Source: Candidatus Roizmanbacteria bacterium RIFCSPLOWO2_01_FULL_35_13 (lineage in GTDB: Bacteria > Patescibacteriota > Microgenomatia > UBA1406 > GWC2-37-13). Taken from it: a stretch of 49,412 bases of DNA. The notes beneath the pieces are model-generated. The model ran no database searches, had not been told where the DNA came from, and worked only from the letters and a program-made list of their open reading frames with translations. The stretch lies in NCBI GenBank assembly GCA_001789635.1, contig MGAF01000052.1, forward strand, positions 12,308 through 61,719, in the 5' to 3' direction. Shown one piece after another: positions 40,391 to 46,492 of the stretch (the first letter of the stretch is position 1; every line of letters starts with the position of its first letter). A program made the position numbers and the translations under genes.

Positions 40391-40840
40391 ATGGAAAATT
40401 CCGGAAACAATAAAAAATTAATTCACGATTTTAGCGGTAATGATCAAAATTCATTCTCAATGCCAAGATTTTTTTTACTTTTATTTGCAGTTATTTTAGC
40501 CGGAAGTGCGGTTGGATTTCTCCTGAGTAAAACAACCAAAAGCAACACTAAAGGAAACTCCAATTCTAAAAATGCAAAAGTTGAAAAAACTGCAGGCATC
40601 GCCGATAAAAAAACGTTCAAAGATAAAGCTGAAGGTAAGTTAAAAGAAGGCGGAATTGACGGGGAGGGGAACTTTCATCTTGAGAGGTCCGGAGGCGAAT
40701 CACAGAATGTCTATCTTACATCCACAACTGTAGATCTATCCCAATACATCGGTAAAAAAATACGGGTTTGGGGTGAAACTTTTCAGGCAGAAAAAGCCGG
40801 TTGGCTTATGGATGTTGGATTAGTTGAAGTTCTCCAATGA
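40391..40840 (+). CDS. Single-pass membrane protein upstream of ftsE
   Basis: 149 residues. A polar cytoplasmic N-terminus is followed by one helix (about residues 25-45, FFLLLFAVILAGSAVGFLLS), a Lys/Asn/Ser-rich linker and a small C-terminal domain: VYLTSTTVDLSQYIGKKIRV, WGETFQAEKAGWLMDVGLVE. The last part looks like an OB-type beta barrel. I do not recognise a named family. Its stop overlaps the ftsE start (ATGA), so translation is coupled and a role in the FtsEX envelope machinery is possible. Confidence 0.7.
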   Translation: MENSGNNKKLIHDFSGNDQNSFSMPRFFLLLFAVILAGSAVGFLLSKTTKSNTKGNSNSKNAKVEKTAGIADKKTFKDKAEGKLKEGGIDGEGNFHLERSGGESQNVYLTSTTVDLSQYIGKKIRVWGETFQAEKAGWLMDVGLVEVLQ

Positions 40841-41514
40841 TTAAATTTGAAAATGTCACAAAAAAATTCCCTTTAGGAAATCTTGCATTAGACGAGGTAT
40901 CGTTTGACGTAGAAGATAAAGAATTTATTTTTCTGGTTGGACCGTCCGGCGCAGGCAAAACGACTATTCTTAAATTAATAATGCGAGAATCCGTCCCAAG
41001 CGAAGGGACTATTCTTGTTGATGACTTTGACATCACCTCAAATGAATTTACGCAGGTTGAAATCTTAAGAAGAAAAATCGGTATGATCTTCCAGGACTTT
41101 AAAATTCTTTTTGACAAAAATATCTATGAAAATATTGCCTTAAGTCTAAAAGTAATCGGACTCCCGGATGACCAAATTAATGATCAGGTGGAAGAAGCAC
41201 TGGAACTTGTTGGCTTATCCAAAAAAACCTACGATTTTCCCATACAGTTATCAGCCGGAGAGATTCAAAGAGTCGCAATAGCCAGAGCAATTGTGGGTGA
41301 CCGCGATATTATCCTGGCTGACGAACCGACCGGCAATCTTGATCCCAAAACTACCTGGGAAATCATGAGAATATTTAAGAAATTAGAAAAAAACAAAACT
41401 ATTCTATTTGCAACCCACAATACTGATATCGTTAACAGCTTTCAAAAAAGAGTCCTGGTTTTAAAACAGGGCAGACTGACAAAAGATCAAAGAAAAGGGG
41501 GTTACGATATATGA
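40837..41514 (+). CDS. ftsE: Cell division ABC transporter ATP-binding protein FtsE
   Basis: 225 residues. Walker A GPSGAGKTT (35-43), Q-loop FQDFKILFDKNIYENIALSL, the signature LSAGEIQRVAIARAI (from 138), Walker B DIILADEPTG (to about 166) and the switch His in LFATHNTD are all present. The protein pairs with FtsX in the membrane and, by analogy, drives a periplasmic or extracellular peptidoglycan hydrolase; an M23 hydrolase lies 2 kb downstream. It overlaps both neighbours by 4 nt (ATGA). Confidence 0.95.
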   Translation: MIKFENVTKKFPLGNLALDEVSFDVEDKEFIFLVGPSGAGKTTILKLIMRESVPSEGTILVDDFDITSNEFTQVEILRRKIGMIFQDFKILFDKNIYENIALSLKVIGLPDDQINDQVEEALELVGLSKKTYDFPIQLSAGEIQRVAIARAIVGDRDIILADEPTGNLDPKTTWEIMRIFKKLEKNKTILFATHNTDIVNSFQKRVLVLKQGRLTKDQRKGGYDI

Positions 41515-42407
41515 ATGAAATACTGACTTCAATCCGGAGAACTCCTTATCAATCGTTGGCAGCCTTTTTGATTTTATTTTTTACTTTATTTTTATCTACA
41601 GCCATGTTTATATCCCTGAGTTTTCTTTACGGCCTTCTGGGATATGTTGAAACCAGGCCGCAGGTTACGGTTTATTTTCAAACAAACATACCTCAAAATG
41701 AAATATTTAAAATACGTGACAAACTGACTAATTCTGACAAAGTCGAATCTATCAAATATGTTTCTAAGGAAGAAGCGTACAAAATTTATAAGGAGTTAAA
41801 TAAAGACAATCCGCTTCTTCTGGAAATGGTTACCTCGGATATCTTACCGGCATCTTTAGAAATATTTGCTAAAAAACCGGAGTATCTTCCGGAGCTGGCT
41901 GATTTCCTGAAAAAAGAACCGGGTGTAGATGAGGTTAATTTTCAAAAAGATATTCTCGACCGCCTTCTCGTCTTAACTGATATTCTAAGAAAAACAACCA
42001 TAGTCTTTTTTGGCTTCCTTATATTTTTAGCCGTATTAGTTTTAACAACAACCACTCTATTTAAGATCGCTCTAAAAAAGGAAGAGATAGAACTACTAAA
42101 ACTATTGGGAGCCAGCAATTTTTATATCAAAAAACCATTTCTTCTCGAAGCTTTTTTATTCGGAACAACCGCAGCCGTTGGATCCTTCGTTATAATACTA
42201 GGAATATTATTCTCACTTAAACCATTTTTTGACTCCTACTTAAAAGATATAACTCAATTAAACCTGCCGCTTTATTTTACCCAGTTAACTGTCTGGCCTG
42301 TCAATTTAACTTTTTTATCCATAGCTTTTCTACTCTCCCTTGTATTCGGAATCGGTATCGCCTTCCTTGCCACCCTCCTGGCAACACAAAAGTATCTGAA
42401 GATTTGA
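41511..42407 (+). CDS. ftsX: Cell division ABC transporter permease FtsX
   Basis: 298 residues. The layout is canonical: an N-terminal helix (about 21-41), an extracytoplasmic domain of about 110 residues with VTVYFQTNIPQNEIFKIRDK and VESIKYVSKEEAYKIYKELN, then three helices, with FKIALKKEEIELLKLLGASN at the cytoplasmic loop (the L-x-G-A motif of MacB/FtsX). It transmits ATP hydrolysis by FtsE to a wall hydrolase. Start overlaps ftsE by 4 nt, preceded by a purine-rich AAGGGGG. Confidence 0.94.
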   Translation: MNEILTSIRRTPYQSLAAFLILFFTLFLSTAMFISLSFLYGLLGYVETRPQVTVYFQTNIPQNEIFKIRDKLTNSDKVESIKYVSKEEAYKIYKELNKDNPLLLEMVTSDILPASLEIFAKKPEYLPELADFLKKEPGVDEVNFQKDILDRLLVLTDILRKTTIVFFGFLIFLAVLVLTTTTLFKIALKKEEIELLKLLGASNFYIKKPFLLEAFLFGTTAAVGSFVIILGILFSLKPFFDSYLKDITQLNLPLYFTQLTVWPVNLTFLSIAFLLSLVFGIGIAFLATLLATQKYLKI

Positions 42408-42426
42408 AAAAAGATAGATTTTTTGT

Positions 42427-42432
42427 TAATCT
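42427..42432 (+). promoter_or_regulatory. -10 box of second DUF5678/protease pair
   Basis: TAATCT with 6 nt to the ATG at 42439, just after the ftsX stop. Confidence 0.4.
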
Positions 42433-42438
42433 TAAGAT

Positions 42439-42732
42439 ATGAATAAAAGTTATTCTTCTTTCCCTGTAATTAATCCAGAACAAATGGCAGAAAAAGGAGA
42501 AGAAATTTATAGTGCCGAAAAAGATAGACTGGAAAAAGAAAATAAAGGGAAGTTTTTGGCAATTGAAGTAGATTCGGGCAAATATTTTATCGGAAAAGAC
42601 CAAATGGAAGCTTTTCGAAAAGCCAGAAAAAAATTTCCTAAAAAAATTTTTTATTTCATCAGAATTGGCTTTCCAGCGGTAGTTAGTCATTCTACTTACA
42701 CAAAACCTTTCATTTATGGAAGCGTTCTTTGA
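42439..42732 (+). CDS. DUF5678-like protein
   Basis: 97 residues. After a helical N-terminal part (NPEQMAEKGEEIYSAEKDRL), KENKGKFLAIEVDSGKYFIG, AFRKARKKFPKKIFYFIRIG gives the DUF5678 pattern, with the basic K-A-R-K-K-F-P-K helix. Compared with the protein at 32506, it has about 30 extra N-terminal residues and a C-terminal extension. It overlaps the aspartyl protease gene by 17 nt. The order is the same as at 32125-32697. Function unknown; see the findings. Confidence 0.72.
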   Translation: MNKSYSSFPVINPEQMAEKGEEIYSAEKDRLEKENKGKFLAIEVDSGKYFIGKDQMEAFRKARKKFPKKIFYFIRIGFPAVVSHSTYTKPFIYGSVL

Positions 42733-43075
42733 TCGAAACGGTCGGCCAAAAATAAGATTAAAAATAAAAGGAAGAAAACAGATAGAAATAGTGGAATCAG
42801 TTATAGACACCGGATTCGACGGATTTCTGAGTTTACCAATTAGTATTGCTGTTACTTTAGGTTTAGAACTCGCAGGAATTCAAAAAGTAGAATATGCAGA
42901 CGGTAGAACCAGTAAAGAATTGGTATTCACTATCGAAGTAAACTTCGATGGTAACTGGAAAAAAGTTTATACCACCTTAACCGAAAGTTATGAAGCACTA
43001 GCTGGAACCGCTTTGCTAAATGAATACGAGGTAAGACTAAACTTCAAAACTCAAAAAATTACTTTCCTAAAATAA
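42716..43075 (+). CDS. Retropepsin-like (clan AA) aspartyl protease
   Basis: 119 residues. IEIVESVIDTGFDGFLSLPI carries the D-T-G motif (D31), and YEALAGTALLNEYEVRLNFK gives the hydrophobic-Gly element near the C-terminus; the length and fold order fit a dimeric single-lobe aspartic protease (AF_0612-like group). It overlaps the DUF5678-like gene by 17 nt. It is a distant relative of the protein at 32125-32502. No signal peptide, so it probably acts in the cytoplasm. Confidence 0.8.
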   Translation: MEAFFDRNGRPKIRLKIKGRKQIEIVESVIDTGFDGFLSLPISIAVTLGLELAGIQKVEYADGRTSKELVFTIEVNFDGNWKKVYTTLTESYEALAGTALLNEYEVRLNFKTQKITFLK

Positions 43076-43124
43076 GATGAAATTTTCAATTTTAAATGTG
43101 GTAGTCACAAAAGTTGTAAAAGTA

Positions 43125-43153
43125 TTGACTTATAGTAATATAGTTGGTATAAT
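43125..43153 (+). promoter_or_regulatory. Sigma-70-type promoter
   Basis: TTGACT-17-TATAAT upstream of the gene at 43174, giving a leader of roughly 14 nt. A second TAAAAT at 43158-43163 lies 10 nt before the ATG. Confidence 0.65.
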
Positions 43154-43173
43154 CGAATAAAATTTAGACTAAT

Positions 43174-43516
43174 ATGACAAACCCAGATCAATTACCCGCA
43201 TTCAATAGACCGATACCAGGGGGGGGATTCAATAGTAAAAAGGGTTCGAGTCAAACATGGATTGCCTGAACCAGCCTCGTTGGAACAAATAGAACCAGTT
43301 GCTACAGCCTTACTAGGAAGCCCTCTTACTTCATTGGACGCTGCCGAATTAGTTTTAAATAGACGTGTAGACGCAAAAGAAAAAATGATCACTCAGATGA
43401 TATTTGGACTAAATACACCAAAAGATAAATTTGCTATGCTATTGATGGAATTTGAAATAGAAAAATCTATGAAAGAAAAAGGAATGTCTGATTTTGGTAC
43501 TAAAAACCCTTTCTAA
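43174..43516 (+). pseudogene. Small hypothetical protein, frame broken at a G8 tract
   Basis: ATG at 43174 opens MTNPDQLPAFNRPIPGGG and then hits a stop after about 30 codons. The next frame, entered at the eight-G run (43219-43226), continues DSIVKRVRVKHGLPEPASLE to KGMSDFGTKNPF and stops at 43516. Removing one G fuses both into a 113-residue protein. A good promoter precedes the ATG, which argues that the fused protein is the real product. A TTG at 43262 opens only the downstream part. No recognised domain; the body is a helical, soluble protein. Same type of break as at 15965. Confidence 0.65.
43219..43226. repeat. G8 homopolymer at a frame break
   Basis: Eight consecutive G in otherwise AT-rich DNA, at codons 16-18 of the gene at 43174. 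Seven would keep the frame open. Confidence 0.85.
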
Positions 43517-43565
43517 AACAATAGCTTCCTAAATTTAGATCAATTCATATTGAACTTATCTTCGC

Positions 43566-43571
43566 TATAAT
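43566..43571 (+). promoter_or_regulatory. -10 box of M23 peptidase gene
   Basis: TATAAT with 6 nt to the ATG at 43578. Confidence 0.5.
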
Positions 43572-43577
43572 TAAAAT

Positions 43578-44747
43578 ATGCTCAAAAAAATAGCCTACCT
43601 AATTATTTTTATTTTCTTTCTTCTAATCACCCAAAATATTTATGCGCAAAATGCCGGCGATGTGGCGAAGAAAATTGAAGAATATCAAAGAAAGCTTACG
43701 GAATTAGGCCGACAAAGAGATTCACTTTCCGCAGAAATCCAATATATGACTCTCCAAATAAATCTGGCGACGCTTAAAATTCAAGAGACCGAGGAAAAAA
43801 TAATTTCCACCCAAAAAGAAGTCGAAATATTAACATCTCGAATTAAAGGCCTTGATACCGCCCTAAATTACTTATCAAAACTCCTACTGAAGAAGATGGT
43901 TGAGGGTTATAAAAATAAACCCGTCTCTTTTTTTGACATTCTTTTTAACAGTCAGAATGCCAATGACTTTATCGGTAAAGTAAAATATCTCAAAACCGCT
44001 CAGGAAAATAATCAAAAACTCCTCCTTCAGGTTCAGGAAACCAAAATTAATTTTGAGGAGCAAAAAAATTTAAGGGAAGAAAAAACAATCGAACTGGCAA
44101 AACTGGAGGCACAACTAACTAATCAAAAGGCCGATCTGGATAATCAGAAAGGAGCCAAGCAAAAAATTCTGAATGTTACTCAAAACGATGAACAGGTTTA
44201 TCAACGGCTACTTCAGCAGGCTAAGGCAGAATATGCCGCTATTCAGGGAATTATCTCCGGAGGCGGAACGGAAACTAAATTGAGAGATGTGGCAAAAGGT
44301 CAAACAATCGCTTCACTTATATCCGGCGCTTCCTGTAATTCCTCAGGTGGTCATCTCCATTTTATAGTTCAGGAAAGCGGAGTCGTATCCAATCCTTTTA
44401 ATTATCTAAAGTCAGTCGATTATAGTAATTGTTCCGGTTCAGGCTGTGGATCATCCGACGGTGACTCATTCAATCCTTCCGGAGGCTGGGACTGGCCACT
44501 AAATCCTGCAATAAAACTTGAACAGGGATATGGCAGTACATGGGCAACGAGAAATACCTGGGCCGGAAGAATCTACAGCTTTCATAATGGAATTGACATT
44601 AACGGTTCTTCAAATAATGTTCTTGCAGTTGCCGATGGTGAATTATACCGCGGGAGCTATGCAGTCGGATGTACCCTGCCCTATGTAAAACTTATTCACA
44701 AAGGATCTAATATCGTTACGTTTTACTTGCACGTTTACTCCCTTTAA
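43578..44747 (+). CDS. Secreted coiled-coil M23 peptidoglycan hydrolase, permuted domain
   Basis: 389 residues. A signal peptide (about 1-23) is followed by a long coiled coil (about 28-215), as in EnvC/PcsB-type hydrolases activated by FtsEX. The M23/LytM domain comes next, but its halves are in reverse order. SGGHLHFIVQESGVVSNPFN (HLH at 259-261), which normally ends the domain, comes first. Then a Gly/Ser/Cys linker leads to WPLNPAIKLEQGYGS, FHNGIDINGSSNN (H336, D340) and IVTFYLHVYSL (H385) at the C-terminus. All metal/catalytic positions are present. This fits a circular permutation. It lies downstream of ftsEX. Confidence 0.82.
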   Translation: MLKKIAYLIIFIFFLLITQNIYAQNAGDVAKKIEEYQRKLTELGRQRDSLSAEIQYMTLQINLATLKIQETEEKIISTQKEVEILTSRIKGLDTALNYLSKLLLKKMVEGYKNKPVSFFDILFNSQNANDFIGKVKYLKTAQENNQKLLLQVQETKINFEEQKNLREEKTIELAKLEAQLTNQKADLDNQKGAKQKILNVTQNDEQVYQRLLQQAKAEYAAIQGIISGGGTETKLRDVAKGQTIASLISGASCNSSGGHLHFIVQESGVVSNPFNYLKSVDYSNCSGSGCGSSDGDSFNPSGGWDWPLNPAIKLEQGYGSTWATRNTWAGRIYSFHNGIDINGSSNNVLAVADGELYRGSYAVGCTLPYVKLIHKGSNIVTFYLHVYSL

Positions 44748-44807: not shown

Positions 44808-46073
44808 ATGACTAATTGGTTAAATCGAATCATAATTTATTCGATCCTTTTCTTCACTTCTATTTTCTTAACTAATAGTAGTCTGGCTGTAACAACTTCT
44901 ATTTCAAATATTCCTTCATCAATTTCAACCGATTCTTTTACTTTTAAAGTAACCGTGTCAGGAGCCAATTCCGGCATAAATTATCTTAGAGTTGATCTAT
45001 ATAAATCTATATCGTCTAACTATTTTGGTGAAACGTTTAACGGATTGGGATGGTATTCGGAAAGCGACCCAACCCAATATTATTCTATTAATATTGAATC
45101 CGGCTCTGATTGGACCGGAGAAATCCAGGGAAAAATCGGAAGTCCGTCTTCAACTCAATATGACGGGCCCGGAATATATAGATTGCGTGTAAGAAGATAT
45201 ACATCGTCCGGAAATTACAACACGACAGAAGCCAATAACAGTGCAACGGATATAAATATTGACGCTTTATTGTCTACTCCGACTCCTAATCCAACACCTT
45301 TAGATACTCTTCAACCAATAGAAGGCGGTGAACAGTTAATTTCTCCAACCTCAAGCCTACAACCTACAACCTATGAAAATGTATATATATCAGAAGTCAT
45401 GATATATCCGGAAGCTGATAATCACGAATGGATCGAAATATATAATGCCAACGAATTTGAAGTTGTCTTGGATCGTTGGAACATAGATGATCTTGAAAAT
45501 TCCGGCAGTACTCCTAAAGAATTTTCGCTAACTGTTCCGGCAAAAAATTACAATTCATACGATCTTTCTGGTTCCGTATTTAATAATGGCGGTGACAGTG
45601 TAAGACTTTTGGATTTTAATCAAAAAGAAATCGACAGTTTTCAATATGAATCTTCGGAAAAAGGAAAAACTCTTGGCAGAATTACTTTTGATAATGATAA
45701 TTTCTGCTTACAGAAACCATCAAAAAATAATATTAATAACTCCTGTTTAAATCCAATCACAATTGCATCTAAATCAACCATATCACTCTCTCCCACAATT
45801 AATGTGACAAAATCTTCCTTGATAACTTCAGCAATCACTGAAACTTTCTCTACAATTGCTCCAAAAAAATTTTCACTTTTTAATCAGAATCAGTCTATTA
45901 TTTCTGAACCGCTGGAAGAAACAAATGAAGAAGTATTGGGAGCAAACACGGTAAATCAAGTGAACGGCAATACGCAATCTCAGCAATTAATTTCTTCATT
46001 AACATTTACCTCATTTTCTTATTCTGTTCTTTCCATTATCTCCGTCTTAATTAAACTAAAAAGCACTTCTTAA
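44808..46073 (+). CDS. Secreted lamin-tail-domain surface protein
   Basis: 421 residues. A signal peptide (about 1-28) precedes a beta-rich N-terminal domain with YLRVDLYKSISSNYFGETFN, then a Thr/Pro linker (STPTPNPTPLDT). NVYISEVMIYPEADNHEWIE, IYNANEFEVVLDRWNIDD and NGGDSVRLLDFNQKEIDSF are the lamin-tail domain (LTD, PF00932; about residues 180-300). A Ser/Thr-rich stretch and a C-terminal hydrophobic helix (about 395-412) would anchor it. Likely role: surface attachment or scaffolding outside the cell. Confidence 0.82.
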   Translation: MTNWLNRIIIYSILFFTSIFLTNSSLAVTTSISNIPSSISTDSFTFKVTVSGANSGINYLRVDLYKSISSNYFGETFNGLGWYSESDPTQYYSINIESGSDWTGEIQGKIGSPSSTQYDGPGIYRLRVRRYTSSGNYNTTEANNSATDINIDALLSTPTPNPTPLDTLQPIEGGEQLISPTSSLQPTTYENVYISEVMIYPEADNHEWIEIYNANEFEVVLDRWNIDDLENSGSTPKEFSLTVPAKNYNSYDLSGSVFNNGGDSVRLLDFNQKEIDSFQYESSEKGKTLGRITFDNDNFCLQKPSKNNINNSCLNPITIASKSTISLSPTINVTKSSLITSAITETFSTIAPKKFSLFNQNQSIISEPLEETNEEVLGANTVNQVNGNTQSQQLISSLTFTSFSYSVLSIISVLIKLKSTS

Positions 46074-46079
46074 TTATTG

Positions 46080-46085
46080 TATTAT
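46080..46085 (+). promoter_or_regulatory. -10 box for VanZ-like gene
   Basis: TATTAT with 5 nt to the ATG at 46091. Confidence 0.4.
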
Positions 46086-46090
46086 TTTAT

Positions 46091-46492
46091 ATGTCAAAAT
46101 TTAATTCCTTTGCATACTATTGGCTACCTGCAATTATTTGGATGGGGATTATTTTTTATTTTTCTTCCCGACTTAACACTTCTGTAACCGGAGAATTTTT
46201 ATTTGATTTTATATTTTTTAAAAGCCTCCATATTATCGAATATTCAATTCTTTACTTTCTGATGTTCCGTGCTTTTTATTCTATTAACAATTCGCGATTA
46301 ACAATTAACAATAAGTTGCTTTTACCTATTTTCTTCTCTGTTTTCTATGCCTTGTCAGATGAAATACATCAAACGTTTGTCCCAACGAGAGAAGGAAAAA
46401 TCCGGGACGTATTTATTGACACAGCCGGAATATTAATAATGTATATTTATATTAAACACAATATTACTACTCTTAAAAAAATTCTGAAATGA
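46091..46492 (+). CDS. VanZ-like membrane protein
   Basis: 133 residues with about four helices. YWLPAIIWMGIIFYFSSRLN at the start and FYALSDEIHQTFVPTREGKI, RDVFIDTAGILIMYIY near the end are the VanZ (PF04892) signature, including the S-D-E-x-x-Q-x-F and R-x-x-D-x-x-x-D-T-x-G motifs. Function in envelope stress or teicoplanin resistance is known only for some members. Residues about 73-81 (NSRLTINNK) come from an ATTAACAATTAAC-like tandem repeat. Coupled to the CAP gene by an ATGA overlap. Confidence 0.88.
   Translation: MSKFNSFAYYWLPAIIWMGIIFYFSSRLNTSVTGEFLFDFIFFKSLHIIEYSILYFLMFRAFYSINNSRLTINNKLLLPIFFSVFYALSDEIHQTFVPTREGKIRDVFIDTAGILIMYIYIKHNITTLKKILK

Follow-up and report, generated by a model that had tools for sequence, protein, structure and literature searches.

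An apparently circularly permuted M23 peptidase domain on an FtsEX-linked coiled-coil protein of Patescibacteria

M23 peptidases are among the commonest peptidoglycan hydrolase families. A gene within a 49,412-nucleotide stretch of DNA from Candidatus Roizmanbacteria bacterium RIFCSPLOWO2_01_FULL_35_13 (contig MGAF01000052.1; the whole stretch is referred to as the window) encodes the motifs of this family in an unexpected order, which raises the question of whether the two displaced halves can make up one enzyme, and what such an enzyme would do next to ftsEX. The gene (43578..44747, forward strand) is an ATG-start ORF of 389 amino acids, delimited with the help of its relatives and their alignment; we describe its product as an FtsEX-linked coiled-coil hydrolase with a permuted M23 head. 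Along the protein, GGHLHF (residues 257-262) and NPFNYL (272-277) come first and are followed by WPLNP (306-310) and FHNGIDI (335-341). The chain then runs to FYLH, which ends at H385, and terminates with VYSL and the stop codon four residues later. The preliminary description of this locus had stated from the sequence that the C-terminal M23 motif precedes the N-terminal one and that the protein ends right after FYLH; both statements hold, the first also in split profile matches and upon rotation of the domain.

In native order, the protein matched the Pfam Peptidase_M23 profile in two stretches scoring 34-35.5 bits, compared to a curated cut-off of 28.7. Residues 335-386 correspond to profile positions 2-52, and the preceding half, searched alone, corresponds to positions 62-96. 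The two stretches are complementary with zero overlap, and their order is reversed relative to ordinary M23. When the domain was un-rotated, with its second part placed ahead of the first, a single stretch covering positions 2-96 was obtained with 41.4 bits. Using these matches, the hhalign results and the invariant residues described below, we delimited a first part that is ordinarily C-terminal (residues 237-278, 44286..44411, forward strand), which carries H259 and H261, and a second part that is ordinarily N-terminal (residues 304-389, 44487..44744, forward strand), which carries H336, D340 and H385. Between them lies a linker rich in Gly, Ser, Cys and Asp (residues 279-303, 44412..44486, forward strand), which connects what are ordinarily the C and N termini.

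To locate the joining point, every rotation point of the domain was scored against a reference profile built from 26 ordinary M23 domains of Microgenomates, the class of the source genome. The score rose from 24.6 bits without rotation to 49.0-49.4 bits at the best rotation, and the plateau was reached with start residues 279-285, directly after NPFNYL. Among 200 shuffled sequences, the highest score was 2.8 bits. With the same profile, rotation raised the score in 39 of 41 homologues. A Gly/Ser/Cys linker at about residues 282-303 had already been named as the joining point, in agreement with the rotation optimum at this position and with the linker itself, whose length and Cys content differ among relatives.

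Profile-profile alignment gave the same picture. In native order, hhalign placed columns 11-54 on template columns 94-135 and columns 71-163 on template columns 11-87 (42 and 76 columns), while the rotated order resulted in a single alignment of 114 columns with a probability of 99.8%. The best PDB sequence match is the M23 peptidase 9gy1, again with its halves exchanged (query 110-166 to chain 40-92 and 12-55 to 100-142). The zinc motifs HxxxD and HxH, the catalytic YxH and an over-cut-off profile match across the whole domain are all found, as in other M23 members. The linear order of the family is HxxxD, YxH, HLH, NP..YL, whereas the observed order is HLH, NP..YL, HxxxD, YxH, and we therefore regard the domain as a permuted variant rather than an ordinary member. 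Since the halves are complementary and reversed, the rotated domain matches from end to end and five LytM-type residues are invariant, circular permutation seems the best reading of the sequence.

The same arrangement is widespread. Matches to the protein were found in 91 of 96 genomes (the source genome and 95 relatives); full-length matches represent the permuted head, and those restricted to about residues 1-231 represent proteins with another head. Profile searches across 380 genomes of the phylum Patescibacteria revealed permuted domains also in families outside the class of the source genome, so that the motif order, proposed earlier as something to look for in Microgenomates, is present there and in other classes of the phylum. 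In total, 86 distinct permuted proteins from many families and more than one class were extracted. All but one of them (85/86) end no more than six residues after the last [YFW]xH, which is the catalytic Y-x-H. A chance order of motifs or an assembly error is ruled out by the occurrence of the same order in dozens of Patescibacteria genomes. No relative of the permuted domain was detected in phages, plasmids or viral contigs at the sensitivity used. One permuted M23 gene that follows ftsX (L232, G156:C7) appears to be disrupted, its frame diverging directly after the first zinc-motif His in the second half.

The constant cut point favours, as far as sequence can tell, a single origin of the permutation. 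When 88 un-rotated domains, both permuted and ordinary, were placed in an unconstrained tree over 112 columns, three divergent permuted rows (L162, L234 and L237) grouped among ordinary domains, but a single clade of permuted domains was not rejected in the AU test (p 0.52). Perhaps the permutation was reached more than once in Patescibacteria.

In LytM, zinc is bound by His210, Asp214 and His293, and catalysis involves His260 and His291 (PMC4594094). Placing the equivalents by motif assigns the zinc ligands to H336 and D340 (codons 44583..44597 from H336 to D340), the catalytic His and the zinc His of the HLH motif to H259 and H261 (LytM His291 and His293; codons 44352..44360), and the other catalytic His to H385 (LytM His260; codon 44730..44732), all on the forward strand. 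The metal and catalytic positions had been described as complete but rotated, and this proved correct: none of the five residues varies among 41 permuted sequences, which come from more than one class. Across 30 still more diverse sequences, H259, H261, D340 and H385 are invariant and H336 is conserved in at least 90%. Additionally, C253 and C365 are invariant in closer relatives and might form a disulfide. In genome G015, which has a second copy elsewhere, a permuted paralogue (L039 4001-5098 and L013, the same gene) reads HTPF instead of HLHF and thus lacks the zinc ligand H261. This paralogue, with no ftsX detected in its vicinity, may be an inactive, activator-like copy.

Upstream of the hydrolase gene in the window lie ftsE, encoding the FtsEX ATPase (40837..41514, forward strand; Pfam ABC_tran, 1.4e-33), and ftsX, encoding the membrane partner with its extracellular domain (41511..42407, forward strand; FtsX_ECD, 1.7e-20; FtsX, 1.6e-11). 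The preliminary description had the gene following ftsEX. This applies literally to most relatives, where it stands directly behind ftsX, but in the source genome a gap of 1.17 kb (42408-43577) with small ORFs intervenes (42439-42732, with a faint DUF5678 match, 42716-43075 and 43262-43516). These ORFs are missing in most relatives, in which ftsX and the hydrolase gene touch; L036 retains the first of them. Among 80 permuted loci with at least 400 nt of upstream DNA, ftsX is directly upstream in 77, and for one of the three exceptions (L006) a longer record (L034) places ftsX 1.39 kb upstream. Genetic linkage to ftsEX is a feature shared with the FtsEX-type coiled-coil hydrolases, and the 389-residue protein also has, like them, a coiled coil before a C-terminal head. 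Residues 1-24 (43578..43649, forward strand) were recognized by eye as a probable signal peptide or N-terminal membrane anchor, with a Lys-rich start, a hydrophobic stretch and ..NIYAQ. The following antiparallel coiled-coil stalk (residues about 25-226, 43650..44255, forward strand), presumed to bind FtsX, was assigned from Pfam and NCBIfam matches, model helices (residues 50-112 and 128-201), and Foldseek and VIA-align matches to EnvC. The stalk joins the domain over a short distance of about ten residues, after which the strands preceding HLH begin.

The known partners of FtsEX bind the extracellular domain of FtsX through a coiled coil, and their hydrolase or activator head is autoinhibited until release (EnvC, PMC7668044; RipC, PMC10694151). 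Taken together, the protein is very probably an exported, FtsEX-controlled hydrolase in which a stalk that engages FtsX is joined to a permuted M23 zinc endopeptidase head. Most likely it would function as an FtsEX-gated septal peptidoglycan endopeptidase; peptidase activity, FtsX binding and gating are all predicted. In this mechanism, the stalk would engage the extracellular domain of FtsX. The Gly/Ser/Cys linker would fuse what are the N and C termini in ordinary M23, and the new termini would lie in the turn that separates the Y-x-H strand from the V..GQ.I strand, so that the stalk leads into the strands preceding HLHF and the chain finishes just after H385. The halves would refold as one domain with one zinc site formed by H336, D340 and H261, with H259 and H385 as catalytic residues, and the head would cut peptide cross-links of septal peptidoglycan as FtsEX cycles ATP. 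A more tentative extension, which we consider possible but rather doubtful, is that the permutation alters the force path: stalk movement would open or strain the zinc site, a mode of gating that is not known from EnvC, PcsB or RipC, and the arrangement would be a functional solution in several Patescibacteria lineages. If this were true, the stalk would act through a direct fusion to the HLH strands, with the chain ending just behind the catalytic YxH, in place of a restraining arm that leads into the ordinary N terminus.

The loci in which ftsX is followed by something else bear on whether the head is itself the enzyme. A motif script was used to sort 80 regions that follow ftsX, most of them in families not belonging to the class of the source genome, and gave 16 CHAP, 9 permuted M23, 8 C39-like and 6 ordinary M23 heads, 22 regions with no such gene and 19 unsorted ones. 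Some of the unsorted regions turned out by eye to carry further CHAP, C39-like or permuted heads (e.g. L178). All 20 further relatives sampled among those that match in the coil only have C39-like heads (10 recognized by the motif script and 10 by reading the sequences). At L027, a C39-like head was confirmed by Pfam. The neighbour of FtsX in this phylum therefore appears to be one stalk with four exchangeable heads, namely permuted M23, ordinary M23, CHAP and C39-like. It is conceivable that the permuted domain has no catalytic activity of its own and is presented by the stalk to switch on a separate amidase, in the way the LytM domain of EnvC, which is without catalytic residues, activates amidases (PMC7668044); the G015 paralogue without H261 would fit such a role. 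On the other hand, the FtsX-linked form keeps all five zinc and catalytic residues in the 41 sequences. At sister loci the same stalk bears hydrolases of other kinds, an indication that the enzyme is the head itself. We consider the activator role unlikely. Within the class of the source genome, C39-like heads replace permuted M23 at L027-L032, L058, L243-L245 and L250-L269, and the head type differs even inside genus g12 (G048 compared to G043, G051 and G053). In other families of the phylum, according to the motif script, the gene behind ftsX has a CHAP-type head, which follows an N-terminal part of coiled-coil length at L171, L174, L177, L181, L184, L188, L189 and other loci.

The permuted head might also be a working peptidase that shares the operon with ftsEX but is not controlled by it. 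The similarity of the stalk to the NCBIfam models of EnvC (residues 28-236) and PcsB (residues 7-221) is indeed weak, both scores being far below the cut-off. Against this, the Pfam CC_PcsB match of the stalk (residues 100-161) exceeds its cut-off with 28.8 bits, and the linkage to ftsX extends over many families. The best whole-model fold matches are FtsEX partners as well. The AlphaFold2 model of the full-length protein (pLDDT 79.6) gave the FtsEX-EnvC complex of V. cholerae (8tzl) as top Foldseek match, with RipC, PcsB and E. coli EnvC (6tpi) also within the top ten, a ranking to be read with the caveat that long coiled coils from unrelated proteins score well too. Given these data, independence from FtsEX seems improbable, and the earlier suggestion that the permuted enzyme is the one controlled by FtsEX gains support from both the gene order (77/80) and the Foldseek matches to EnvC, RipC and PcsB.

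A structure prediction and a comparison with EnvC had been proposed as a check; besides the EnvC match of the full-length model, the domain modelled alone is predicted as a single compact unit (AlphaFold2, pLDDT 85, pTM 0.85), in which both halves would share one zinc site. When the domain model was submitted to order-dependent searches, with Foldseek in PDB and BFVD and with VIA-align, no M23 chain was listed; this would be expected if the connectivity differs, but it lends the fold no positive support. A domain swap, in which the halves complete folds between two copies and an active site arises only in an FtsEX-held dimer, would in principle be allowed by the linker of about 25 residues, which is flexible in the full-length model (pLDDT <50 at residues 286-296). 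We regard such a swap as hardly probable, since EnvC binds two FtsX domains as one copy (PMC7668044) and the single-chain model of the permuted domain is confident and compact. One usual route to a circular permutant is a tandem duplication followed by loss of the outer halves, and two separate, decayed M23 fragments from such a duplication, with no shared site, would initially look similar. This very improbable case is largely ruled out by profile halves (62-96 and 2-52) that do not overlap and each supply what the other lacks, and by the strong constraint on both halves, with a constant cut point, over more than one class.

The permuted M23 head represents a real and conserved variant of a known family that is apparently undescribed. 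It shares with ordinary M23/LytM domains (PF01551; LytM, lysostaphin) the HxxxD, YxH and HLH motifs, the flanking WP and NP..YL and, upon rotation, a full-length match, but its halves are reversed, its termini lie between the YxH and V..GQ strands and its ordinary termini are connected through a linker. EnvC of E. coli and V. cholerae likewise combines an antiparallel coiled coil with a C-terminal LytM-type domain and is coupled to FtsEX, to which the permuted protein is linked by its genes. In contrast, the LytM domain of EnvC has the ordinary order and no catalytic residues, and is gated by a restraining arm some 50 residues long, whereas the permuted protein keeps all catalytic residues in permuted order and has only a short stretch from stalk to domain. 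PcsB of Streptococcus pneumoniae, RipC of Mycobacterium tuberculosis and CwlO also consist of a coiled-coil stalk and a C-terminal peptidoglycan hydrolase head, but there the FtsEX-controlled head is a cysteine enzyme of the CHAP or NlpC/P60 type, while the head described here is, judged by its motifs, a zinc peptidase. A precedent is provided by the LRAT-like and YaeF/G6R subfamilies of NlpC/P60, naturally permuted hydrolases that retain their catalytic residues (PMC6403190) but have a cysteine-enzyme fold unrelated to M23. A literature search returned only these permuted NlpC/P60 proteins and nothing on permuted M23, which is weak evidence because subscription journals and preprints were mostly outside its coverage.

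A conserved permutant attached to FtsEX would show that the M23 fold tolerates this cut, and it would offer a natural variant of the coupling between FtsEX and its hydrolase in a group in which division has hardly been studied. One stalk with four heads makes the requirement on the head directly testable. For annotation, it is relevant that the permuted proteins show up in profile searches as a pair of broken M23 pieces, and that the relation of the domain to M23 can escape order-dependent fold searches.

Downstream of the hydrolase gene, a gene for a lamin-tail-domain (LTD) protein is followed by a VanZ-like gene (44808-46492), an order that is kept in many genomes, and this neighbourhood often includes an SCP-like gene.
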